A program made the translations under genes and the position numbers. A DNA stretch of 55,412 bases, taken from positions 1 to 55,412 of the forward strand of contig JALEKD010000021.1 of the NCBI GenBank assembly GCA_022769285.1. The letters run 5' to 3'. This document shows positions 2,960 to 49,707 of the stretch, piece after piece. Under the pieces are notes generated by a model. It ran no database searches, had not been told where the DNA came from, and saw only the letters and a list, made by a program, of their open reading frames with translations. Every line of letters begins with the position of its first letter. Within the stretch, counting starts at the first letter, position 1. This DNA is from Prevotella sp. Lineage in GTDB: Bacteria; Bacteroidota; Bacteroidia; Bacteroidales; Bacteroidaceae.

Positions 2960-3033
2960 AGACCGGCCGTTATGTTTCCAGAAGCCGTCATTAGCGAGCT
3001 GGGAGCCGTCTTCAGCAACGTAAAGACCAGTCT
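2960..3033 (+). repeat. dispersed 74-nt intergenic repeat, copy A
   Basis: Begins AGACCGGCC and ends AAGACCAGTCT, so the ends are near-inverted copies. Internally it has the tandem-like pair AGCCGTCATTAGC and GGGAGCCGTCTTCAGC. The same 74-base unit occurs at 14669, 29440 and 46661, with a decayed copy at 37702. Similarity extends outward into the purine tract on the left and GCGCGCGCTG on the right. Confidence 0.85.
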
Positions 3034-37701: not shown

Positions 37702-37770
37702 AGACCGACCTTTTCAATACTGGGAGCCGTCATTGGCACGCTGGGAGCCGTCATCAGCAACGCAATGAGG
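37702..37770 (+). repeat. dispersed intergenic repeat, copy D (3' end decayed)
   Basis: Begins AGACCGACCTTTTC and has GGGAGCCGTCATTGGC followed by GGGAGCCGTCATCAGCAACG, matching copies A and E, but the terminal TAAAGGTCGGTCT arm is lost. Confidence 0.75.
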
Positions 37771-37866: not shown

Positions 37867-37874
37867 TAATTTTG
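37867..37874 (+). promoter_or_regulatory. -7 box of the five-gene envelope operon
   Basis: TAATTTTG, perfect match, 24 bases before the ATG at 37899. A TTTG lies 14 bases upstream, which is shorter than usual spacing. Confidence 0.6.
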
Positions 37875-37898: not shown

Positions 37899-40034
37899 AT
37901 GTTTACGCGATTAAAGTCACTTCATTTAGAACGTTCTGTAGTCTCGCCGTTTATGGCTGTCAGTTTTAATCTTCTGCTGGTGTTCGCGGTGTACACCCTG
38001 GCCCGCGTGGAATACCTGCTGGAAAACTATAGCTATTTTGCCCAAAGCGTGAGCGAGGGCCACCTGGCCCGCCTGATGTGGGGAGGCGTGGTTTTTGACA
38101 CGCCGGGTATCATGTACACCAACGCGGTGTACATCGTGCTCATGCTGTTACCCCTGCACTATAAGGAGAACGCCACCTACCAACGGATGTGTAAGTGGGT
38201 GTTCATAGTCATCAACAGTCTGGCCTTAGCGGTCAACCTGGCCGACTCAGTCTACTTCCGCTACACGCTGCGACGCACCTCGGCCAGCGTATTCACCGAG
38301 TTTAAGGGCGAGGACAACCTCACGGCGATATTCGGAGTAGAACTCCTGCATCACTGGTACCTCGTGGTGATGGCCGCCGTGCTCATCTACGCCCTATGGA
38401 AGCTCTACTTTACGCCCCGCATAGACAGGAGCCGCATAGACCTACGCGTGTACTACCCCCTGCAGGTGGCCAGTCTGGTAGTGGCGGGCGTGTACTGCGT
38501 GAGTGGCATCAGGGGCGGACTGCTCAACCACTGGTACAACTATCTGATAGCCATAGCGACTGCCTATGTGGCTTACAAGACATGGCGGGGCCGCCCCGCC
38601 CGTTTGTGGACAACACGCATATGTGCCGCCATCACCTTGGTGCTCGTAATCACCGCTCCCATAGGCGGATGGCGCCACCGCGACATACGGCCCGTGACCT
38701 TAGGCAACGCCAACGAGTACACCTACCGCCCCACTGAGGTGGCGCTGGTTCTCAACACCCCCTTTGCCATCATCCGAACCTACGGCAAGGCCGTGTTTAC
38801 CGACCCTGGCTACTACCCCAACAAGGCCCAGCTCGATGCCATCTACTCGCCGCTGCACCGCCCCGACCACCAGGGCATGCGCAAGCGCAAGAACGTGGTT
38901 GTCATCATCATTGAGAGTTTTGGCCGTGAGTATATCGGCAGCCTGGCACGCACCGCGCTGGGCCCTGGCTACAAGGGCTACACTCCCTTTACCGATTCGT
39001 TAGTTGCCCACAGCGCCACCTTCCGCTACTCTTACTGCAACGGCCGTAAGAGTATCGACGGCATGCCCTCTATCCTCTCCAGCGTCCCTATGTTTATCAA
39101 GCCCTTCATCCTAACGCCTCAGTCGCTCAACCATCTGAGCGGCCTGGCCGGCTACTTGGGTCATAAGGGTTACTACTCGGCCTTCTTCCACGGTGCCCGT
39201 ACTGGCAGCATGGGCTTTAACGGCTTCGCCAACGCTACGGGCTTCAAGGGGTACTTTGGGCGTGAGGATTTTGACAAGGACAAGCGTTACCATGGCGATG
39301 CCGACTTCGACGGCTACTGGGCCATCTGGGACGAGCCGTTTATGCAGTACTACGCCACCAAGATGAGCGACTTCCACGAGCCCTTTGTTACCGCCCTCTT
39401 CACGGCTTCGAGCCACCACCCCTACCACATTCCCGACCGCTACAAGCAGAAGTTCCCCGAGGAGGGCATTGTTATCCACAAGTGCATCCGCTACACCGAC
39501 AACGCCCTGCGCCGCTTCTTCGACACCGCGCGCCAGCAGCCTTGGTTCAAGAATACGCTGTTCGTCATCACGTCAGACCATACCAACCTGAGCGACCATG
39601 CCGAATTCTCGTCGGATATAGGCGGCTTCTGCTCGCCTATCATCATCTACGACCCCTCAGGCGACATCCGCCCAGGTATGCGCGATGCCATCGCCCAGCA
39701 GATAGACATCATGCCCACCGTCCTGGGCCACTTAGGCTACGACGAGCCTTATGTGGGCTTCGGCTGCGACCTCTTCCACACACCGCCCGAGCAGACATGG
39801 GCCATCAACTACCTCAACGGCGTGTACCAGTACTGCAAGTATGGCTACGTAATGCAGTTCGACGGCAGCCGAGTGGTGGGTATGTACCGTCTGGACGACT
39901 ACCTGATGCGTACTAACCTGGTGGGCCGCGTAGCTGTCCAAGGCCAGATGGAGCGCGAGTGCAAGGCCATCATCCAGTCGTACATGGACCGCATGATAGG
40001 CGATCGCCTCACACCCGGTAATCATCATAAGTAA
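37899..40034 (+). CDS. LtaS-like membrane-bound sulfatase-fold transferase
   Basis: 711 residues. About five N-terminal membrane helices (within residues 15-260) precede an extracytoplasmic alkaline-phosphatase/sulfatase domain. Active-site elements: IIIESFG (Glu339, metal ligand), NGRKSIDGMPS where Ser385 or a neighbour would be the nucleophile, FFHGARTGSMGF, and VITSDHTN near the end, the metal-binding Asp/His. This is the architecture of lipoteichoic-acid synthase and phosphoglycerol/phosphoethanolamine transferases. In a Gram-negative it may decorate a surface glycan or lipid with a phospho-group. Heads an operon; four bases separate it from the next gene. Start fixed by the promoter. Confidence 0.85.
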   Translation: MFTRLKSLHLERSVVSPFMAVSFNLLLVFAVYTLARVEYLLENYSYFAQSVSEGHLARLMWGGVVFDTPGIMYTNAVYIVLMLLPLHYKENATYQRMCKWVFIVINSLALAVNLADSVYFRYTLRRTSASVFTEFKGEDNLTAIFGVELLHHWYLVVMAAVLIYALWKLYFTPRIDRSRIDLRVYYPLQVASLVVAGVYCVSGIRGGLLNHWYNYLIAIATAYVAYKTWRGRPARLWTTRICAAITLVLVITAPIGGWRHRDIRPVTLGNANEYTYRPTEVALVLNTPFAIIRTYGKAVFTDPGYYPNKAQLDAIYSPLHRPDHQGMRKRKNVVVIIIESFGREYIGSLARTALGPGYKGYTPFTDSLVAHSATFRYSYCNGRKSIDGMPSILSSVPMFIKPFILTPQSLNHLSGLAGYLGHKGYYSAFFHGARTGSMGFNGFANATGFKGYFGREDFDKDKRYHGDADFDGYWAIWDEPFMQYYATKMSDFHEPFVTALFTASSHHPYHIPDRYKQKFPEEGIVIHKCIRYTDNALRRFFDTARQQPWFKNTLFVITSDHTNLSDHAEFSSDIGGFCSPIIIYDPSGDIRPGMRDAIAQQIDIMPTVLGHLGYDEPYVGFGCDLFHTPPEQTWAINYLNGVYQYCKYGYVMQFDGSRVVGMYRLDDYLMRTNLVGRVAVQGQMERECKAIIQSYMDRMIGDRLTPGNHHK

Positions 40035-40038
40035 CGCT

Positions 40039-40851
40039 ATGCTGTTCGTAAGAGACAAGGGAAGGATGTGCAACAACCTGTTGCAGTACGGCCACGTCTA
40101 CGCCTGGGCCCGCGAGCACGGCCGCCACACGGTTTCCATGCGCTTTGCCTACAAGTATCCCTACTTCCACATCGGCCACACGCGCTGGCACAACTTCGCC
40201 GTGTACGCCTTGGCCAAGGGCGCGGCCCGCGTGGGCTTGCTGCCAACGGCCAGCTTCGACAGCCCCGACGGAAACCCCGAAGCCCAGCACCTGATGGACA
40301 CCCACCGATGGCTGATGGTCGAGGGCTGGTATGTACGCTACTACGACCTTTTCCTGAAGTACAAGCAGGACATTCTGAGCCTCTTTGCCTTCAGCCCCAG
40401 AGTGAGCCGCGCCACCGACAGCTATCTCGACCAGACCGGCGGCAGCCAGGGGCTGCGCTTGGGCGTACACATACGCCGGGGCGACTACCGCACGTGGATG
40501 AATGGGCGCTACTATTACGACGATCCAGTGTATATAGACTACATACGGCGCTTCGTGGCCTCGCAGTCGCAGCCTGTACATATATATATATGTGGAAACG
40601 ACCCCTCGCTGAACCGCGCACTGTACGAGCAGGAGCTGCCCGGCGTGGCGCTGTCGTTCGCCACGGGCACCGCAGGCGAAGACCTGTGCCTGCTGTCGCG
40701 CTGCCAGTACATCATAGGCGCTCCCAGCACCTTCTCGCTGGTCGCGTCGATGTACCACGACAGCCGCCTGTGCTGGATGATGGCCCCCCTGGCCGCCGGC
40801 GAGGCCCCGCAGTTTGGCCAGTTCGATCAGCTGTTTCGCCACATTATCTAA
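40039..40851 (+). CDS. GT11-like (alpha-1,2-fucosyltransferase family) glycosyltransferase
   Basis: 270 residues. The N-terminal GRMCNNLLQYGHVYAWA resembles the GRxGNQxFQY motif of GT11, and HIRRGDY (144-150) is the GDP-fucose-binding HxRRxD block shared by alpha-1,2 and alpha-1,6 fucosyltransferases. A late segment CQYIIGAPSTFSLVASMY fits the third conserved block. The N-terminal Gln is replaced by Asn, so the donor may not be fucose. Likely modifies a surface glycan together with the upstream transferase; the gap to it is four bases. Confidence 0.75.
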   Translation: MLFVRDKGRMCNNLLQYGHVYAWAREHGRHTVSMRFAYKYPYFHIGHTRWHNFAVYALAKGAARVGLLPTASFDSPDGNPEAQHLMDTHRWLMVEGWYVRYYDLFLKYKQDILSLFAFSPRVSRATDSYLDQTGGSQGLRLGVHIRRGDYRTWMNGRYYYDDPVYIDYIRRFVASQSQPVHIYICGNDPSLNRALYEQELPGVALSFATGTAGEDLCLLSRCQYIIGAPSTFSLVASMYHDSRLCWMMAPLAAGEAPQFGQFDQLFRHII

Positions 40852-40889
40852 TCAGGCCCCAACCGATGATACATATAATACCTATAGAT

Positions 40890-41432
40890 ATGAATAGAAA
40901 TATAATACTGTTCCTGCTACTTATCGGCAGTATGGCCACAGCCACCGCGCAGCGCATCAGTCTGAAGACCAATACCCTGTACTGGATGGCAGAGTCGCCC
41001 AACCTGGGCGTAGAGTTTCGCATGAACCGCCATGTCACACTCAACGTCGAGGGCATCGTGAGCCGGCTCGGCATAAGCGATATCCATGTCAAGGGCGAAG
41101 CCTTTACGCCCGAGCTACGCTACTGGCTGAGCGCCCGCCCACAGGCCGGCCACTTCATAGGACTCATGGGGGTGGCCACCCATTACAACCTGCGCCACCA
41201 GGACTGCCGGCACAACGGCGATGCCCTCGGCGGCGGACTCACCTATGGCTACAGCTTTGTGCTGAGCCGCCACTGGAGTTTAGAGGGCAGCCTGGGCGTG
41301 GGCCTGCTGCACCGCCACGAGAAGCATTACGAAGAGGGCACCGATGTCGAGGTGCCCAGCCGCGCCAACTGCAGCAAGTGGGCCCCCGTCCCACTGCGGG
41401 CCGGTGTGTCGTTTGTGTATATCCTCAAGTAG
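40890..41432 (+). CDS. DUF3575-like outer-membrane protein
   Basis: 180 residues with a signal peptide (MNRNIILFLLLIGSMATATAQ). The mature part is a small predicted beta-barrel: ISLKTNTLYWMAESPNLGVE at the start is typical of DUF3575, followed by alternating amphipathic strands and a C-terminal aromatic strand (AGVSFVYILK). In Bacteroidales, DUF3575 genes often sit beside OmpA-like genes in fimbria-type loci. An in-frame ATG at 40866 is an alternative start. 38 bases each side to neighbours in the same operon. Confidence 0.8.
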   Translation: MNRNIILFLLLIGSMATATAQRISLKTNTLYWMAESPNLGVEFRMNRHVTLNVEGIVSRLGISDIHVKGEAFTPELRYWLSARPQAGHFIGLMGVATHYNLRHQDCRHNGDALGGGLTYGYSFVLSRHWSLEGSLGVGLLHRHEKHYEEGTDVEVPSRANCSKWAPVPLRAGVSFVYILK

Positions 41433-41470
41433 CAGCCACGGCTGTAAGTATAGTATAGATTAAACAACTG

Positions 41471-43552
41471 ATGAAGAAAGACATGAAAAATCTATTCGGC
41501 ACAATCCTATCGCCGCGCGTACGCTGGGCGGTGCTGGCGGCCATGACCCTATGGCTGGGCCTACCCGCCAAGGCCCAGGAGGCCATCCGCCTTACCGGTG
41601 TCGTAACCGCCAAGGCCGACAAGGAGCCCCTTATCGGTGTAAACATCAGCGACGCTGCCACCAAGCGTGCCTATGCTACCACCGATGTCGACGGCCGTTT
41701 TGCCTTCAACGTACATGTGGGCACCACCCTGCACTTCAGCATGGTGGGACTCAAGACGGTAACCGTCAAAGTAAAGAGCGCCAAGTTCTTAGATATCCAG
41801 ATGGAAGAGGAGAACATCTCGCTCAAGGAGGTGGTGGTGGCCGCCAAGCAGATTACGGACAAGATAATGCCCGAGCCTACCGACATCGAGGTCAAGGGCA
41901 ACTACTTCCACGTGCGAACCCGCGTGAGGGTGCCCCGAGAGATGTTTGCCCACAACACGCGCCTCGTGGTACAGCCCATACTCAACGACGTGACCCGCGG
42001 AGAGTTCCGCGCCATGCGGCCGATGGTCTACGACGCGCGGGAGTACAACCGCACGCAGGACCGGCTGTACAATTTTGACATAGCTGACAGCACGGCGGGC
42101 GACCCGCTGGCCCGCTACATCACCGTGAAGTCAAAGGCCATGCGGGAGAAGAACCGCACGAACGACATCATAGGCTACTCGGACTCCATTTACGTAGAGC
42201 ACGTCAAGGACGAGTTCTCGTGCGACGTATATATGGCCATTGAGAACTACAACCGTATCTTGTACCGCGACACCACCATCATAGCGCGCGGAACGGTCAA
42301 TCCCCTGCGCTGGCTGGACTACTCCTTTGCCGCCGGAGAGCTCACGGACTCGGCCTTTATGCCCAAGCCCGAGATGCAGCTGCGCGACAGCCGCGGCGAG
42401 GTCAACTTGCAGTTTCCCATAGGCAAGAGCGTGTTCGACACGGCCAACCCGCAGAACGCCGCCGAAATAGAGAAGATGAAGCAGCAGCTCCAGCAGATAG
42501 CCTCGACCAAGGATGCCACGCTGCAGTCGCTCGCCATGGAGGGCACGTCATCGCCCGACGGCCGCTATGCCTCTAACCTCACCCTGGCGCAGCGCCGTAT
42601 GGACTTCGCTGTCAACTACCTACGCCAGCAGGTACCCGAGGACATGCGGCGGAGCATGAAATTTACCTCCAAGGCTTCCGTGGCGCCGTGGACCGAGGTG
42701 GCCCGACGTATGCGGGCCGACAGCCTGGACACCGAGGCAGCCCAGGTAGAGGCGGCCATCAAGCGCTATGCCAACATAGACGCCCAGGGCCGTGCCATAC
42801 GCCGGTTGACGTTCTACACGCGGCTCATAGAAGGCCGCTATCTGCCCCAACTGCGCAAGGTGGGGTACGTGATGAACTACTCCATCTTCCGCCAGCTCAC
42901 CACTGATGAGATACGCGAGCTGTACAACAAGGACTACAAGCAGCTCTCTCGTTTCGAGTTCTTCAAGCTCTACCGCTCGGAGACCGACCAGGCCAAGCGC
43001 GAGCAGATACAACGCCAGGCTCTGGAGATGTACCCGTCGTTCATGGCGGCAGCCAACGACCTGGCCTCATCGCTCATCAACCGCCGGGTGCCCGACGCGC
43101 AGGTACTGCGTCCCTTCGCCGGGGCCAAGGCTCCACAGGTGGTTAATACCAACCAGATGATAGCCCTGCTCAGCGCCGGCCTGTACACCGAGGCCGACTC
43201 GGTGGCCCAGTTTGTTACCGACAACGAGGCCTCGCACCTGCTGCTGGCCGTCAACGCTGTGCTCAACGGCCGCTATGACGACAACTTTGCCACCGTGGCC
43301 AAGACCGGCAAGCGCAATGAACTGGTCATGCTGCTCGCCATGAAGCGCGACAAGGAAGCGGCCGATCTGGTGAAGCAGTTGCCCGAGGACGAGGCCATCA
43401 CCCACTACCTGCAGGCCATCTGCCTGAACCGTATGGACGACCCGGTAGATGCCTACAAGGCTCTGAAGAAAGCATTCGAGATGGATCCGTCGTTAGAGAA
43501 GATAGCCCGTGTAGACGGCGATGTTAACGACCTATTATTGGATAAGAAATGA
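41471..43552 (+). CDS. envelope protein: CarboxypepD-like + OmpA-like + TPR-like
   Basis: 693 residues. Signal peptide to about residue 36 (cleavage after AKA-Q). Residues 40-115 are a carboxypeptidase-D regulatory-like domain (LTGVVTAKADKEPLIGVNI ... TTDVDGRF). The middle (about 130-305) is unassigned. Residues about 310-390 match the OmpA C-terminal peptidoglycan-binding fold (VNLQFPIGKSVFDTAN ... MEGTSSPDGRYASNLTLAQRR). The last 200 residues are helical and TPR-like (EMYPSFMAAANDLASSLINR, HYLQAICLNRMDDPVDAYKAL). Suggests a link between peptidoglycan and outer membrane. Its stop is four bases before the start of the giant barrel gene. Confidence 0.78.
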   Translation: MKKDMKNLFGTILSPRVRWAVLAAMTLWLGLPAKAQEAIRLTGVVTAKADKEPLIGVNISDAATKRAYATTDVDGRFAFNVHVGTTLHFSMVGLKTVTVKVKSAKFLDIQMEEENISLKEVVVAAKQITDKIMPEPTDIEVKGNYFHVRTRVRVPREMFAHNTRLVVQPILNDVTRGEFRAMRPMVYDAREYNRTQDRLYNFDIADSTAGDPLARYITVKSKAMREKNRTNDIIGYSDSIYVEHVKDEFSCDVYMAIENYNRILYRDTTIIARGTVNPLRWLDYSFAAGELTDSAFMPKPEMQLRDSRGEVNLQFPIGKSVFDTANPQNAAEIEKMKQQLQQIASTKDATLQSLAMEGTSSPDGRYASNLTLAQRRMDFAVNYLRQQVPEDMRRSMKFTSKASVAPWTEVARRMRADSLDTEAAQVEAAIKRYANIDAQGRAIRRLTFYTRLIEGRYLPQLRKVGYVMNYSIFRQLTTDEIRELYNKDYKQLSRFEFFKLYRSETDQAKREQIQRQALEMYPSFMAAANDLASSLINRRVPDAQVLRPFAGAKAPQVVNTNQMIALLSAGLYTEADSVAQFVTDNEASHLLLAVNAVLNGRYDDNFATVAKTGKRNELVMLLAMKRDKEAADLVKQLPEDEAITHYLQAICLNRMDDPVDAYKALKKAFEMDPSLEKIARVDGDVNDLLLDKK

Positions 43553-43556
43553 TGTT

Positions 43557-46385
43557 ATGATAGTCATCATGCCTATGACAAGAATGATCAAGAAGACGAC
43601 CGCGGCCTGCATGGCGCTCCTCGCGATGGGCACCGCCGCCCAGGCTCAGGTGCCCGGAAGCGCCCTGAACTACATGCTGCAGAAGCCACGCGTCACCAAG
43701 TATTATAAGGACAAGCACTTCATGGACCACCTGTTCGTCGACGCCGGCGGGGGCATCAACGCCATGAACCTGCGCGACCCGGAGATAGCTGGTCAGGGCG
43801 AGCTGCACATTGGCGACTGGCTCACGCCTGAGCACGGCCTGCGCCTGAGCCTCAACGGTGGTCTGTACCGTACCTATGGTGTCAAGTCCAAGTTTGCCGG
43901 CATCGGCCTGGACTACCTGCTCAACATCACGGCACTCAGCCAGCGTGGCACCAGTTACACACCGCGTCATTTCGAGCTCTATGGCCTGGCCGGCGTAGAT
44001 TATACCTACTCGCGCCACGAGGGCGAGAGCCGCCGCGGACTGGGTGTCCATGTGGGTGTGCGCGGGCAGGCTGCCCTGTCGCCCTATACATATCTATATA
44101 TAGAGCCACGGTTAGGCATATCGAGCGACCAGGTGTCGCAGGTAGAGTCGTGGCATGGTTACCGGCCCGTGGCCAGTGCCTCGGTGGGCTTGGGATACCG
44201 TTTGCCCGAAGCCGGCATACGTCGCCGACCCACCGGAGAACCTACCGGATGGGCCGATGGCCTGTTTGTCAGTCTGATGGGTGGCCCCGCCGCCCTGCTC
44301 AACTCTCAGCCGCAGACCTGGGGCGACCAGGCCGGTGCCCGCTTCATGGGCAGCATAGGCAAATGGATGGGCCATACCAACGGGGTGCGTCTCTCGGTGC
44401 TTGGCACTTATCTTAACCAACCCTGGGGCCATCGTGTCAAGGCGGTAGGGGGCCAGGTAGACTACCTGGTCAACCTGCACAATGCCTTTGGCGGCTACGA
44501 CCCCGACCGGTGGTTCTGGCTCAACGGTGTTGTCGGTGCCAGCTACAGCTACTCGTCTACTTATCCCGATTACAGGCATGGCGTGCCCGGTGTGGGTGCC
44601 GGCCTGCAGGCCAATGTGCGCCTGTCGCGCGACATAGACTTGGTTATAGAGCCACGCGTCGATGCCTACGGGCAGCACTACGTGCCTCTGGCCAACTCTA
44701 TAAGCCAGCACGATGTGGTAGGTTCCGTGCTCGCCGGCCTGGTGTACACCTACCACGACCGCCGCGCCCAGCGCGGCCCGGCCGATCCCTTCGAGCGTCG
44801 CCCCTGGTACGGCCACACCTTTGTCGAGATGGGTTTAGGGGCCAATGTGCCCGTTATCTTCCCTGCCGCACGACATACGTTTACCTATCTGCGGCCTTCG
44901 GCTTATATGGCCGTGGGCAAGTGGTTCACACCGGTACACGGTGCGCGCCTGTGGGGCCTGTTGGCTCAGACGCAGTTCGAGCGCAACGACAAGAACCGAT
45001 ACAAGCACGCTGAGATGGGTGCCGACTATCTGTTCAACTTTACCAATGCCTTCTACGGTTACCGTGCCGACCGCTTCTTCACATTCTCCGGGGCCCTTGG
45101 TGCCAACCTCTCGCGGCGCTCTGAGCGCACCGCGCTCTTCCTGGGTCTCGACGCGTCGCTCCGCGGCTCTATGCGGCTCAGCCGTATGGTCAGCCTGTTT
45201 ATCGAACCGCGTCTGCAGGGGTACAACGATGACTATCTGCCCACCCAGCTCAGCTCCACGGGCATAGACCTTATTGCCTCGGTGAACGCTGGCCTGCAGT
45301 TCAACCTGAACTACCTGGAGCGTACCAATGGGCGTGGCCTGGGCGATGATGGCGAGGACTACCGCAGCTTTATCTCGGTGGGCGGCGGACTTACCAACCA
45401 TGTCAACATGCTGCGCACGGGCCGCGCCTACAGCCCTGTGGGCCGCATCGGTTACACGCACTGGTATTCGCCCACGACAGCATGGCGCGCCAATCTGCAG
45501 GGCTTCTTCCAGCGCAGCGTGGGCCGCAGCCGCCATGCTCAAGCGAGCCTGTCGGCCGACTGGCTTACTGACCTGACGGCCCTCAACTATGGCTACGACC
45601 CCGACCGTACCCTCTCGGTGAGCGCCTTTGGCGGCGTGGGCCTTGGGGCTGACATCGGTGACGGCCGCACTACCTTCGCACCCGACATCCATGCCGGCAG
45701 CCAGTTGGGCATCCGCCTTTCTGATGCTGTCAGGCTCAACTTAGAACCCCAGTTGTCGTATCAGCTGTCGTCGCGCTGGACCAGCCAGACCGAGCGGGTT
45801 ATGCCCCAGTTCTTAGTGGGTCTCGACTACAGTCTACAGCGCCACCATGGCGCCAAGCACAATGCCTCGGCTCCTGCCAAGCGCCATGTGGTCATGGCCG
45901 GCGTGGGCACAGGCGTGTACTCGGCCTCGTTTAGCGAGGTCAGCAAGCGCAGCGAAAAGTTTGGCATCCTCGAACAGGTGGGCTACGGCCAGTGGCTCAG
46001 TCATGCCAACGGTGCCTATGCCCGTCTGAGCAACATCACGCTGAAACGCCGCGGCTCGGGCAACCAGAATATCACCTCGCTACAGGCTGGCTACATGATG
46101 AACGTGAAGAGCGCCATCACGGGCGAGTCGACCGAAGACCAGACCTTCCAGCTCACGGCCCTGGCCGGAGCATCGCTCAACATGGCCTCGCGTCCCGGAC
46201 ACGGCACCCACATAGCCCCGGGCCTTCAGGCATCGCTGCAGGCCGGCGTGCGCGTGTCGCCACAGGTAGAGGTGTATGTAGAGCCTGCCGTCAGCTTGCT
46301 GGGCAAGAACGTGGAGCAGCGCCACAGGTCTTACCCAGGCGAGGGACAGCTCGGCGTAAGCGTAGGAACCAAGTTTAATTTCTGA
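43557..46385 (+). CDS. giant outer-membrane protein with five tandem barrel units
   Basis: About 942 residues. After a signal peptide (TTAACMALLAMGTAAQAQ) come five homologous units of about 160 residues, repeating every ~180: roughly 60-215, 237-399, 422-587, 604-761 and 777-942. Each opens with a Gly-rich strand (FVDAGGG, FVSLMGG, FVEMGLG, FISVGGG, HVVMAGV), has a (D/A)YLxN segment, often GYDPDR, and an IEPR-like strand (near 183, 365, 550, 730, 909) before a closing aromatic strand. Each unit resembles an eight-stranded OmpA/OmpW-type barrel. Start uncertain among ATGs 43557, 43569, 43575 and 43584. Last gene of the operon. Confidence 0.8.
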   Translation: MIVIMPMTRMIKKTTAACMALLAMGTAAQAQVPGSALNYMLQKPRVTKYYKDKHFMDHLFVDAGGGINAMNLRDPEIAGQGELHIGDWLTPEHGLRLSLNGGLYRTYGVKSKFAGIGLDYLLNITALSQRGTSYTPRHFELYGLAGVDYTYSRHEGESRRGLGVHVGVRGQAALSPYTYLYIEPRLGISSDQVSQVESWHGYRPVASASVGLGYRLPEAGIRRRPTGEPTGWADGLFVSLMGGPAALLNSQPQTWGDQAGARFMGSIGKWMGHTNGVRLSVLGTYLNQPWGHRVKAVGGQVDYLVNLHNAFGGYDPDRWFWLNGVVGASYSYSSTYPDYRHGVPGVGAGLQANVRLSRDIDLVIEPRVDAYGQHYVPLANSISQHDVVGSVLAGLVYTYHDRRAQRGPADPFERRPWYGHTFVEMGLGANVPVIFPAARHTFTYLRPSAYMAVGKWFTPVHGARLWGLLAQTQFERNDKNRYKHAEMGADYLFNFTNAFYGYRADRFFTFSGALGANLSRRSERTALFLGLDASLRGSMRLSRMVSLFIEPRLQGYNDDYLPTQLSSTGIDLIASVNAGLQFNLNYLERTNGRGLGDDGEDYRSFISVGGGLTNHVNMLRTGRAYSPVGRIGYTHWYSPTTAWRANLQGFFQRSVGRSRHAQASLSADWLTDLTALNYGYDPDRTLSVSAFGGVGLGADIGDGRTTFAPDIHAGSQLGIRLSDAVRLNLEPQLSYQLSSRWTSQTERVMPQFLVGLDYSLQRHHGAKHNASAPAKRHVVMAGVGTGVYSASFSEVSKRSEKFGILEQVGYGQWLSHANGAYARLSNITLKRRGSGNQNITSLQAGYMMNVKSAITGESTEDQTFQLTALAGASLNMASRPGHGTHIAPGLQASLQAGVRVSPQVEVYVEPAVSLLGKNVEQRHRSYPGEGQLGVSVGTKFNF

Positions 46386-46452: not shown

Positions 46453-46512
46453 AAAAGCCCTGCAAGAACCCGAGGCATCACCACAGATGCCATCCGTTCT
46501 TGCAGGGCTTTT
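46453..46512 (+). terminator. terminator of the envelope operon
   Basis: AAAAGCCCTGCAAGAAC (46453-46469) pairs with 46496-46512 over 17 bases; the loop can form a second stem GGCATC/GATGCC. Ends in TTTT. Confidence 0.88.
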
Positions 46513-46660: not shown

Positions 46661-46734
46661 AGACCAACCTTTACGATACTGGGAGCCGTCATTAGCAAGC
46701 TGGGAGCCGTCTTTAGAAAGCTAAAGGTCGGTCT
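46661..46734 (+). repeat. dispersed 74-nt intergenic repeat, copy E
   Basis: Begins AGACCAACCTTTACG and ends CTAAAGGTCGGTCT, with GGGAGCCGTCATTAGC and GGGAGCCGTCTTTAG inside. The best-preserved inverted ends: AGACC(A/G)ACCTTTA against TAAAGGTCGGTCT. Confidence 0.9.
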
Positions 46735-47055
46735 TTCGGAACGCGGAGGCCGATTGGGGGATACGTGGAGAGCAATTGCCCCGTTTTCTGCGACCGTTAT
46801 ATGAAGATTCGCAGCCATTTCGGACGCGCAGGAGACATCCTCACAAGCAGCGCGCGCTGCTCACATAGATTTGCGCATGGTTATCATGGCCATCACCTAC
46901 CTCGCGGTCACGCCCCTGGCCCTTATGGGCACCACCATGCTACTCATGTTTACCACCATGCCACCCCTGGTCATCACCCTGCATGTTCGCGACCACTGTC
47001 CGGCTACCCCTGGCCATCCCCCCGCTATCATTTTGGCAGCGCTAATAACTAAAAC

Positions 47056-47136: not shown

Positions 47137-49623
47137 TTACATTTCCTCGCCACCTGTATATTGGTCTGAAGGACTCATGCCGTTCATGTCGTCATGGTGC
47201 TGAGACTTCTTCTTAGACTGGCCAAAGTTCCAGGTGAGTGTGAGGTTCACCTTACGACCACCGCGCTTGTTGACCTGATGACGGGTAAAGGTCTCGCTGC
47301 TGGTAAAGGTTTCCCACTTACGGCTGTTGAACACATCGCGACAATTGATCGACAGCGTGAACTTACGATTCATAAAGTTCTTACGTACACCAAAGTCTAC
47401 GTTGTAGTTGCCCTTGCGATAACCCTGCGAGACAACCTGGCGCGAGCGGTAACGACCGCCCAGCTGGACAGAAATGTCGTACGGCAGGATAAGGCTGGCC
47501 TGCATACGGGCGTTCCAGGTAAAGTTGGAGTTGCCCTCGCCACTCACCGTCTGGTTGTCTATCACGTAGTTGAAGCCATTAAGCTTGTAGTAATAGGCAT
47601 TGACATTGGTGGTGAGGTCCAGTATGCGGAACAACTTGTTCTTGACCGTTGCCTCGATACCCGAACTCTGGCTCTTGGCCACGTTACGGGTGGTAGAATA
47701 CATCATATCAGAGGCTGAGTCGTGCCAGTTAACGCGCTGCATCACGTCGGTAGTGGGCCGGTAGTAGGCACTGATGAGCAGCGAGTGCTCAGTCCATGTG
47801 TGCAGATAGTTAAGGGCGAACGAGTTGGAGTACTCAGGGGTAAGTTCAGGGTTACCAAAGGACACGGTGGTAGCATCGCGCGTGTCGCGGAACGAGTTGA
47901 GCTGTCCGCCCCATGGGCGGCGCAGACGGCGGGTGTAGTTGAGCTGCAGCTGGTCGTCCTTGGTAAGCTGGTAGCTCATAAACACGCTGGGGAAGAGCTG
48001 GAAGTAGTCCTTCTTGAACTTAGTCTGACTCATGTCGGCATCGGTAGCTGTCTGCCAGAAGTCGCTTGTGGTGTTGACACGCCAGTACTCGCCACGCAGA
48101 CCACCCATGATGCCCAGCTTGCCCCATTGGTACTGGGCGGTGAGGTAGAGGGCGTGCAGATCCATGTCATAAACAAAGCGGTTGTAGTAACTCTTGTCAA
48201 AAACGGCGTTGCTGCCGGCCCAGTTGTCTGCTGTCCACGACTCCTGAGGAGTGTTCTCGTGCGAGAAGTTGCCTTCGTAACCGGCCTGAACCTTAAACTG
48301 CTCAGTAATGGGGTTCTCATAGTCGAGCTTGACCTGCCAGCTGCGGTTGTTGATGTACAAGGGGCGGTACTGGTAGTCATAGGTCGTGGGCTGATAGCCC
48401 TGCGAGTAGCTGGTAGAGTCCTGGTACACGTTGCTGTCATCGCTCTTCCACTTGTTGAAACCCACCACAAAGTCCAGATAATGGCGGTCGGTAAAGTTGT
48501 GACGGTAGTTGAACTCGCCATAATACATATTCATGTCGCCATTACTGGTGGTGCGGCGCGTCATAACGCGCTCTAACTCTGAACTAGCATAGGAGCCGTA
48601 GTGGTAAGGCGTGAGCGACCAGTTGTTATGGCTACCCTTCATCAGCATACCGCTCAGACTGAGGTCGTCCTTCTTAGTGGCATGCCAGGTTACGCCAGCC
48701 CGCGAGAACAAGCCATTGCCCATATGGTCATCGCTGGCCGAGTAGCGCTGGTACTGCGAGGTCTGCGGAAAGGTCTGCTCGCTCTCGCTGCGACCACGGT
48801 CCTTGCGGTGGCGGTACCCTATATTAAGGTAGGCGTCCACTTTGGCGCTGTTCACATTGATATTGCCACTGGTCGAGGCCCCGCCGCGAGTGTCGCCACC
48901 CACTTCGACAGAGCCGTAGTAGCCCGCGTTGCGGTCCTTCTTGAGGACTATGTTGATAATGCCGGCCGAGCCTTCAGCCGAGAACTTGGCCGAGGGATTG
49001 TCGATAATCTCGATGCGCTCTATGCTCTCTGCGGGCAACTGCTGGAGTATCTGGGCGCGGTTATCGCTGGTCAGTCCGCTGGCCTTGCCGTTAATCCACA
49101 CCTCCACGCTTTCGTTTCCACGCAGGGAGATGTTTCCGTCGTTGTCCACGTCTACCGAGGGTATGTTCTCGAGTACATCGGTGGCGGCCTGGCCGGCATT
49201 GGACACCAGCTGGCTTACATCGAAACTCTTGCGGTCTACCTCTAACTTCATAGAGGCCCGCTGGCCGGTTACCTTAACCTCGTTGAGCAGATGGGCGTCC
49301 TCGGCCATGTACAGCACGGCATACGATACCACCCTGTTCTGGGCCGTGATGGCAAAGGAGCGGGTCACAGGCTTGTAGCCCATAAACGACAGGGTCACCG
49401 TGTAGGTTCCGTCGGGCAGCCCCTTGACATTGAACTTTCCATCTATATCCGATATGGCGCTACCCACTATCCTGGTCGTGTCACTCTTGGCTGTGACCAC
49501 CACATTGACAAACTCGATGGACGTGCTGTGGGCCTTGTCCAGTATGCGACCCCTTACGCTACCCTGGGCGAAGCCCGCCAGTGTGCAGAGGGTAAGCGCT
49601 AATGTTACGATTATACGATTCAT
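47137..49623 (-). CDS. TonB-dependent-receptor-like outer-membrane protein
   Basis: 828 residues. Signal peptide MNRIIVTLALTLCTLAGFAQ. Then a carboxypeptidase-D-like domain (about 22-105, VRGRILDKAHSTSIEFVNVVV ... GLPDGTYTVTLSFMGY), a plug-like domain (about 110-235, with DVLENIPSVDVDNDGNISLRG and GSAGIINIVLKK) and a long barrel that ends in LTLTWNFGQ before a His/Asp-rich tail. This is the outer-membrane beta-barrel family of Bacteroidota that resembles TonB receptors without a SusD partner; ligand unknown. Start taken at MNRIIV (49623). A hairpin lies in its leader. Confidence 0.88.
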   Translation of the reverse strand: MNRIIVTLALTLCTLAGFAQGSVRGRILDKAHSTSIEFVNVVVTAKSDTTRIVGSAISDIDGKFNVKGLPDGTYTVTLSFMGYKPVTRSFAITAQNRVVSYAVLYMAEDAHLLNEVKVTGQRASMKLEVDRKSFDVSQLVSNAGQAATDVLENIPSVDVDNDGNISLRGNESVEVWINGKASGLTSDNRAQILQQLPAESIERIEIIDNPSAKFSAEGSAGIINIVLKKDRNAGYYGSVEVGGDTRGGASTSGNINVNSAKVDAYLNIGYRHRKDRGRSESEQTFPQTSQYQRYSASDDHMGNGLFSRAGVTWHATKKDDLSLSGMLMKGSHNNWSLTPYHYGSYASSELERVMTRRTTSNGDMNMYYGEFNYRHNFTDRHYLDFVVGFNKWKSDDSNVYQDSTSYSQGYQPTTYDYQYRPLYINNRSWQVKLDYENPITEQFKVQAGYEGNFSHENTPQESWTADNWAGSNAVFDKSYYNRFVYDMDLHALYLTAQYQWGKLGIMGGLRGEYWRVNTTSDFWQTATDADMSQTKFKKDYFQLFPSVFMSYQLTKDDQLQLNYTRRLRRPWGGQLNSFRDTRDATTVSFGNPELTPEYSNSFALNYLHTWTEHSLLISAYYRPTTDVMQRVNWHDSASDMMYSTTRNVAKSQSSGIEATVKNKLFRILDLTTNVNAYYYKLNGFNYVIDNQTVSGEGNSNFTWNARMQASLILPYDISVQLGGRYRSRQVVSQGYRKGNYNVDFGVRKNFMNRKFTLSINCRDVFNSRKWETFTSSETFTRHQVNKRGGRKVNLTLTWNFGQSKKKSQHHDDMNGMSPSDQYTGGEEM

Positions 49624-49632
49624 ACCTTTATA

Positions 49633-49650
49633 AGACGTTTTTGAACGTCT
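49633..49650 (-). promoter_or_regulatory. leader hairpin of the TonB-receptor-like gene
   Basis: AGACGTT-CAAA-AACGTCT on the minus strand, a perfect 7-base inverted repeat ending 9 bases before the ATG, with an extra AACGTT just upstream. Could be an operator or a structure controlling ribosome access. Confidence 0.5.
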
Positions 49651-49707
49651 AACGTTTAATTCCATGAAATAAATTGCTATATTTTTTTATTTTCTGATTA
49701 TATTGCG

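Follow-up and report, generated by a model that had tools for sequence, protein, structure and literature searches.

A conserved DUF3575, OmpA/TPR and multi-barrel gene triplet in a Prevotella contig and its predicted role in the outer membrane

The five-gene locus

The window analyzed here is a 55,412-nt stretch of Prevotella sp. DNA (contig JALEKD010000021.1), in which five plus-strand open reading frames (ORFs), genes 1 to 5, follow each other with gaps of 4, 38, 38, and 4 nt (Table 1). Genes 3–5, which encode a DUF3575 protein, a protein with predicted OmpA C-terminal-like (OmpA_C-like) and TPR domains, and a protein with five predicted tandem OmpA-type barrels, are a conserved three-gene module. 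An earlier note on this DNA had described the five ORFs with their gaps, a TAATTTTG box in front and a 17-bp terminator behind, all of which were confirmed in the sequence. The box is perfect, as the note had it, but the promoter is only half-perfect, because the nearest upstream TTTG lies at 14 nt and the −33 spacing is off. Its descriptions of the DUF3575, OmpA/TPR, and penta-barrel proteins agree with the PF12099 match of gene 3, the model of gene 4, and the five units of gene 5.

Table 1. Features of the five-gene block, with positions in the window.
Feature	Position	Strand	Remark
Promoter −7 box TAATTTTG	37867..37874	+	Perfect Bacteroidota −7 box 5′ of gene 1
Gene 1: LtaS-like membrane phospho-transferase (predicted), sulfatase fold	37899..40034	+	Module apart from genes 3–5
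Gene 2: GT11-like glycosyltransferase (predicted)	40039..40851	+	Module apart from genes 3–5
Gene 3: DUF3575 protein	40890..41432	+	Opens the conserved triplet
Gene 4: SusC-NTE-like/OmpA_C-like/TPR protein	41471..43552	+	
Gene 5: multi-barrel protein, five tandem OmpA-type 8-stranded barrels (predicted)	43557..46385	+	
Terminator-like hairpin, 17-bp perfect stem	46453..46512	+	

Conservation of genes 3–5 and the position of genes 1–2

The product of gene 3 matches PF12099 (DUF3575) with 163.7 bits against a cut-off of 21.1 bits. When loci were collected by the barrel gene alone, gene 4 was found directly upstream of it in all 26. DUF3575 was present in 24 of these loci, in the order 3-4-5 in 23 and 4-5-3 in Bacteroides luti; in the other two the contigs end inside gene 4. 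Among 151 family genomes, 16 besides the window's had a barrel match at E ≤ 1e-16, and gene 4 adjoins the barrel gene in every one, with DUF3575 on the same contig in 15 and the triplet split over two contigs in the sixteenth. The two counts overlap, as 8 of the 16 are probably the same records as loci among the 26. The six order-level multi-barrel loci agree as well (6/6). Within the window's genus, a barrel match at E ≤ 1e-40 was obtained in 1 of 249 genomes, the window's own, while more distant triplets lie in three same-genus genomes (L096, L097, and L100). Selection of the distant triplets (L076–L087, L091–L100, and L107) relied in part on the gene 4 match, which means that their synteny does not count as independent evidence. 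Of the 26 triplets, 13 have a TAnnTTTG box no more than 350 nt before DUF3575, against 4.1 expected from mononucleotide shuffles, and one of the 13 boxes lies only 5 nt from the start.

A full Bacteroidales-type triplet was also seen in L132, a metagenome-assembled genome labelled Clostridium sp., whose label is probably wrong. One same-genus genome (G150) has 13 DUF3575 matches.

The earlier note had taken all five genes for one system, with a phosphorylated and fucosylated glycan that the barrel protein either exports or receives as a modification. Genes 3–5 indeed behave as a unit, but LtaS and GT11 genes stand beside the triplet in a single one of the 26 loci (L108, Prevotella sp. P5-108) and in none of the 16 other family genomes, some of whose contigs are short. 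By the note's own account, its idea fails if the first two genes are never near the last three, and this is nearly the case here, L108 being the exception. Loci L112, L121, and L130 have little or no upstream DNA (L128 has 1.4 kb and L129 1.1 kb), so they have no bearing on the absence of genes 1–2; in L120 a weak LtaS-like ORF (87 bits) lies 2.5 kb upstream on the opposite strand. Genus-wide, the close barrel gene of the one genome compares with LtaS matches (E ≤ 1e-150) in 142 and GT11 matches (E ≤ 1e-40) in 97 of the 249 genomes, the window's own included, and no LtaS or GT11 match was near the distant triplets L096, L097, and L100 among the matches listed. In relatives, genes 1–2 are found near genes for GT9 heptosyltransferase, DUF4254, LicD, or lipid A acyltransferase. 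On the other hand, the order of all five genes is kept in L108 (identities to the window of 83, 67, 62, 79, and 59% for genes 1–5), even though neither efp nor rpmH turned up next to the L108 block. Also, the 38 nt that separate genes 2 and 3 in the window show no TAnnTTTG box, so read-through from genes 1–2 into the triplet is possible there; in L108 the GT11 and DUF3575 genes are separated by 226 nt with such a box. On the synteny and the genus-wide distribution of genes 1–2, we reject the single glycan-barrel system as very unlikely, while a lineage-specific functional link of all five genes is conceivable, as their order is kept in L108. A conserved efp/rpmH context for LtaS was unsupported, as neither gene was found in the loci from L068 on.

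What genes 1–2 do by themselves is suggested by their matches and neighbours. Gene 1 has a sulfatase-fold domain in common with LtaS-like phosphoglycerol transferases and matches 3lxq and 4uoo by sequence. With the LtaS NCBIfam equivalog it scores 67.3 bits against a cut-off of 970 bits, so it was rejected as an LtaS equivalog, and its neighbours in relatives point to the lipopolysaccharide (LPS) core instead. Gene 2 matches PF01531 (GT11) with 27.2 bits (cut-off 23.9), over residues 134–237 only. Gene 2 also contains the motif HIRRGD, which we take to be a GT11-like signature, and fucosyl transfer is predicted at most. Among the matches listed, genes 1 and 2 lie within 10 kb of each other in 50 of the 90 genomes that hold both, and in 22 of these 50 they are on the same strand. 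Pfam matches of 10 proteins at three loci, one in each of three relatives, gave heptosyltransferase (GT9) with DUF4254 at two loci, LicD at one, and lipid A acyltransferase at one, along with GT2, GT90, deacetylase, and ABC transporter genes. Because of these LPS-type neighbours, decoration of the LPS or lipooligosaccharide core is the likely role predicted for genes 1–2.

The five-barrel chain and its periplasmic partner

Gene 5 consists of five homologous OmpA-type units, which are tandem repeats by sequence, with barrels at residues 59–215, 236–398, 421–584, 604–760, and 777–941. Its AlphaFold model contains 40 strands (5 × 8), and in structure comparisons units 1, 2, 4, and 5 each match solved closed 8-stranded barrels; for barrel 3 there was no 8-stranded match among the structures listed. 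The chain is therefore predicted to be a multi-barrel protein with five separate domains of the 8-stranded type found at the N-terminus of OmpA. A whole-chain Foldseek search against the PDB returned mostly large barrels, with a query-length TM of at most 0.11 among the 50 matches listed. As one chain holds all 40 strands, it might be thought to make a single 40-stranded pore. This is extremely improbable and was rejected, because the units individually match closed barrels and the homologues gain or lose entire units.

To follow the number of barrels, 121 proteins (119 in addition to the query and its database copy) were read with one profile per barrel. The order was 12345 in 67 and 1245 in 51, and the orders 1234, 1234345, and 1232345 were found once each. 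The search covered proteins 0.55–1.75 times as long as the query and, of these, the 7996 best candidates, so very short and very long chains are missed in these counts. At locus L123 the order is 12344445, and it is 1245 in Leyella stercorea (L121), Prevotella pectinovora (L118), and Segatella copri (L126). The order-level loci have five barrels (L156, L157, and L161), six (L158), or eight (L159 and L160), and distant family members with weaker scores range from two barrels (L080, 436 amino acids) to the 1728-amino acid chain of L107 with ten, partly fragmentary, barrel-profile matches. Judged by these profiles, gene 5 homologues gain and lose whole barrels, from two to at least eight.

Besides multi-barrel proteins, the profiles of the units retrieve single-barrel proteins of about 380–410 residues, which score 52 bits for the OmpA of the window's own genome and 64–85 bits for 13 others. 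All 11 that were tested of these 14, one of them from the window's own genome, have a C-terminal PF00691 OmpA domain. Gene 5 gave no PF00691 match up to E = 1, and its barrel 5 stops at residue 941 of 942. By sequence, the units of gene 5 are related to OmpA barrels. A derivation from DUF3575 was unsupported, with profile-profile probabilities of 0.8–2% for four units; unit 2 reached 52% with an E-value of 1.5e-4 over 60 columns.

The OmpA_C fold is predicted in gene 4 instead. The N-terminus of gene 4 is a hydrophobic helix, judged by eye to be a signal peptide, and its model has a SusC-NTE-like domain (residues 37–118), a beta domain (139–273), an OmpA C-terminal-like domain (303–475), and TPRs (475–690). 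In OmpA_C domains an Asp and an Arg are, we assume, the residues that contact diaminopimelate. All 56 gene 4 sequences have a Ser (Ser361) in place of the Asp, and after it come a Pro that never varies, an acidic residue, and an equally invariant Gly. Arg376 is retained in all 56, and Asn369 and Leu372 are invariant too; the Asp-containing pattern is fitted by 13 of the 14 single-barrel OmpAs, L143 being the exception. The alignments comprised the query with 72 of the 120 homologues listed (A1), 31 of the 120 with 24 of the 26 loci, the two truncated loci being dropped (A2), and 23 of these 24 loci, all but L125 (A3). In the models, OmpA is thus split and multiplied, gene 5 having no OmpA_C domain and gene 4 carrying an OmpA_C-like one. 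A 557-amino acid relative of gene 4 was also seen in L088 (10526–12199; G000:C8) with no barrel gene in the neighbourhood covered, and similar frames of about 550–600 amino acids occur in many family genomes.

Both termini of gene 5 should be periplasmic, because the number of strands is even and export proceeds via the periplasm. The long turn after strand 4 would then face the periplasm, and the outer loops would be short and variable. In 57 five-barrel rows, this 13–15-residue turn has a conservation of 0.62, compared with 0.63 for the strands and 0.42 for the outer loops (20–39 residues per barrel; turn versus loops, p = 2e-10), and conservation is lowest in the inter-barrel linkers (0.39). 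The conserved turn points to a periplasmic partner, for which gene 4 would be the obvious candidate. We hold with moderate confidence that genes 3–5 form an outer-membrane module, in which gene 4 likely docks the five-barrel chain from the periplasmic side and would, through its predicted OmpA_C-like domain, tie the chain to peptidoglycan. A narrow pattern of the turn motif is also present in 5 of 14 ordinary OmpAs, so its conservation may be partly ancestral.

According to this docking model, the gene 5 protein would fold as five linked OmpA-type beta-barrels in the outer membrane and gene 4 would bind the turns after strand 4 through its TPR or NTE-like domain. Gene 4 may make a non-canonical contact with the cell wall, because an invariant Ser stands where an Asp normally contacts diaminopimelate. 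The DUF3575 protein could act as an accessory outer-membrane protein, and genes 1–2, as an LPS-core-type decoration pair, likely came to lie upstream. We suggest more tentatively that the wall-facing and barrel halves of an OmpA became partner proteins and whole barrels were duplicated, giving a periplasmic-face, membrane-wide scaffold held by the TPR/OmpA_C protein, which in distant relatives would be the base of type V pili. If so, the triplet shows outer-membrane proteins growing by whole-barrel addition, with OmpA taken apart into a membrane half and a wall half, each testable alone, and it provides a named three-gene module for a protein class without an assigned function. The varying barrel number would be a natural experiment on the contribution of one barrel, and stand-alone modules in Prevotella relatives would be connected to the DUF3575 and OmpA/TPR genes that occur in fimbria loci.

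Pilus loci, other known systems, and the surroundings of the block

The main rival to periplasmic docking assigns the triplet to a type V (Mfa/FimA-type) pilus or a related surface filament, whose base in the outer membrane it would form; the window's copy would then be an orphan that serves pilins elsewhere or a diverged cargo. Of 23 distant triplet loci, 9 contain fimbrillin-like ORFs by a profile built from six Pfam-confirmed fimbrillins. A gap rule selected 80 neighbouring genes on the same strand as distant triplets, and these gave 12 DUF3575, 10 Mfa_like_1, and 2 DUF5119 matches. The L084 triplet is flanked by fimbrillins on both sides, and L078 has three upstream. In Bacteroides thetaiotaomicron, as far as the available part of PMC10434189 shows, Mfa1 (BT4227) lies close to the DUF3868/DUF3575 genes BT4233–36. 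Close triplets, however, look different: the same profile found none in 29 close loci (counted without L068, L069, L072, L073, L074, L075, and L089, which duplicate contigs of other loci), and no fimbrillin family was among the first 25 of 89 Pfam families for 30 neighbours of close triplets (of 32 genes, all except genes 1–2 of L108). In the window, no fimbrillin was found among the five genes or the two flanking genes scanned, and the one Mfa_like_1 match of its genome, which is 84.6% complete, lies in a calcineurin-type phosphoesterase. In addition, type V pili are described in the accessible text of the review PMC12632263 as consisting of lipoprotein tip, stalk, and anchor pilins. Thus, the triplet occurs in type V pilus loci (Mfa_like_1, DUF5119, DUF3575) of distant relatives, but a pilin gene was found neither beside the window's copy nor in the 29 close loci. 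We consider a pilus base doubtful for the triplet as a whole; for the distant branch the role is plausible, but for the branch of the window it has no support.

Three further observations concern such genes. In L077 (G093:C9), fimbrillin genes lie next to a tandem pair of complete DUF3575-OmpA/TPR-multibarrel triplets. Upstream of distant triplets (L081, L082, L084, L085, L087, and others) there is often a gene for a second DUF3575-like protein, which is larger (about 280–600 amino acids). In L155 (16–2430), a calcineurin-like phosphoesterase has a fimbrillin-like (Mfa_like_1) N-terminal domain.

Genes 4 and 5 could also be read as a PorE-like scaffold and barrel that help to export or assemble proteins, as a specialised part of the type IX secretion system (T9SS) would. 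TPR, CRD-like, and OmpA_C-like parts are combined in one predicted periplasmic protein both in gene 4 and in PG1058/PorE, as the latter is presented in the available part of PMC5053529. Foldseek matched gene 4 to the PorE C-domain 6top (E = 2.2e-3), and gene 5 has a weak PorT/SprT match (18.2 bits against a cut-off of 125 bits). The domain order, however, is reversed: PorE runs TPR, propeller, CRD, OmpA_C, whereas the gene 4 model has the CRD-like part first and the TPRs last, with no propeller in its secondary structure, and its partner is a barrel chain. As no T9SS component scored above cut-off in the five proteins either, an export scaffold is hardly probable.

Compared with the Bacteroidales OmpA (about 390 amino acids, one barrel and a C-terminal OmpA domain), gene 5 has homologous barrel units, but five of them, and the OmpA_C-like part resides in a separate protein that lacks the canonical Asp. 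Multi-barrel outer-membrane proteins are known as a class (Solan et al. 2021, PNAS, doi 10.1073/pnas.2104059118, as cited in the accessible parts of PMC11494523 and PMC8592465). GfcD, for example, also has more than one barrel domain per chain, but by these descriptions it has two larger barrels with a domain between them, whereas chains of the gene 5 family string together from two to at least eight barrels of the OmpA type and have a fixed partner pair. No described system of this make-up was found in the literature searched, which had little coverage of subscription papers. The variant described here, with multiplied OmpA barrels, the OmpA_C-like part in a partner, the fixed triplet, and the turnover of whole barrels, was absent from the same literature and may be new.

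The GC content per kilobase is 0.57–0.63 in the five-gene block and 0.53–0.61 beside it, with 0.44 at 37.0–38.0 kb. Apart from that dip, these values give no signal of recent import, and a PLSDB search gave no near match; a plasmid origin was therefore unsupported. The block is flanked on each side by one copy of a dispersed repeat (37702–37760 and 46661–46737), which has AGACCGACCTTT...AAAGGTCGGTCT-type ends and contains at least one 21-nt CTGGGAGCCGTCATTAGAAAG-type core; more copies are near 3000, 14709, and 29473. The CTGGGAGCCGTCATTAGAAAG-type core has 87 matches in the genome with at most two mismatches, compared with none for the reversed pattern. Downstream of the block, a TonB-dependent receptor is encoded at 47137–49665, and L108 has a receptor with 80% identity to it downstream of its block, after other genes.
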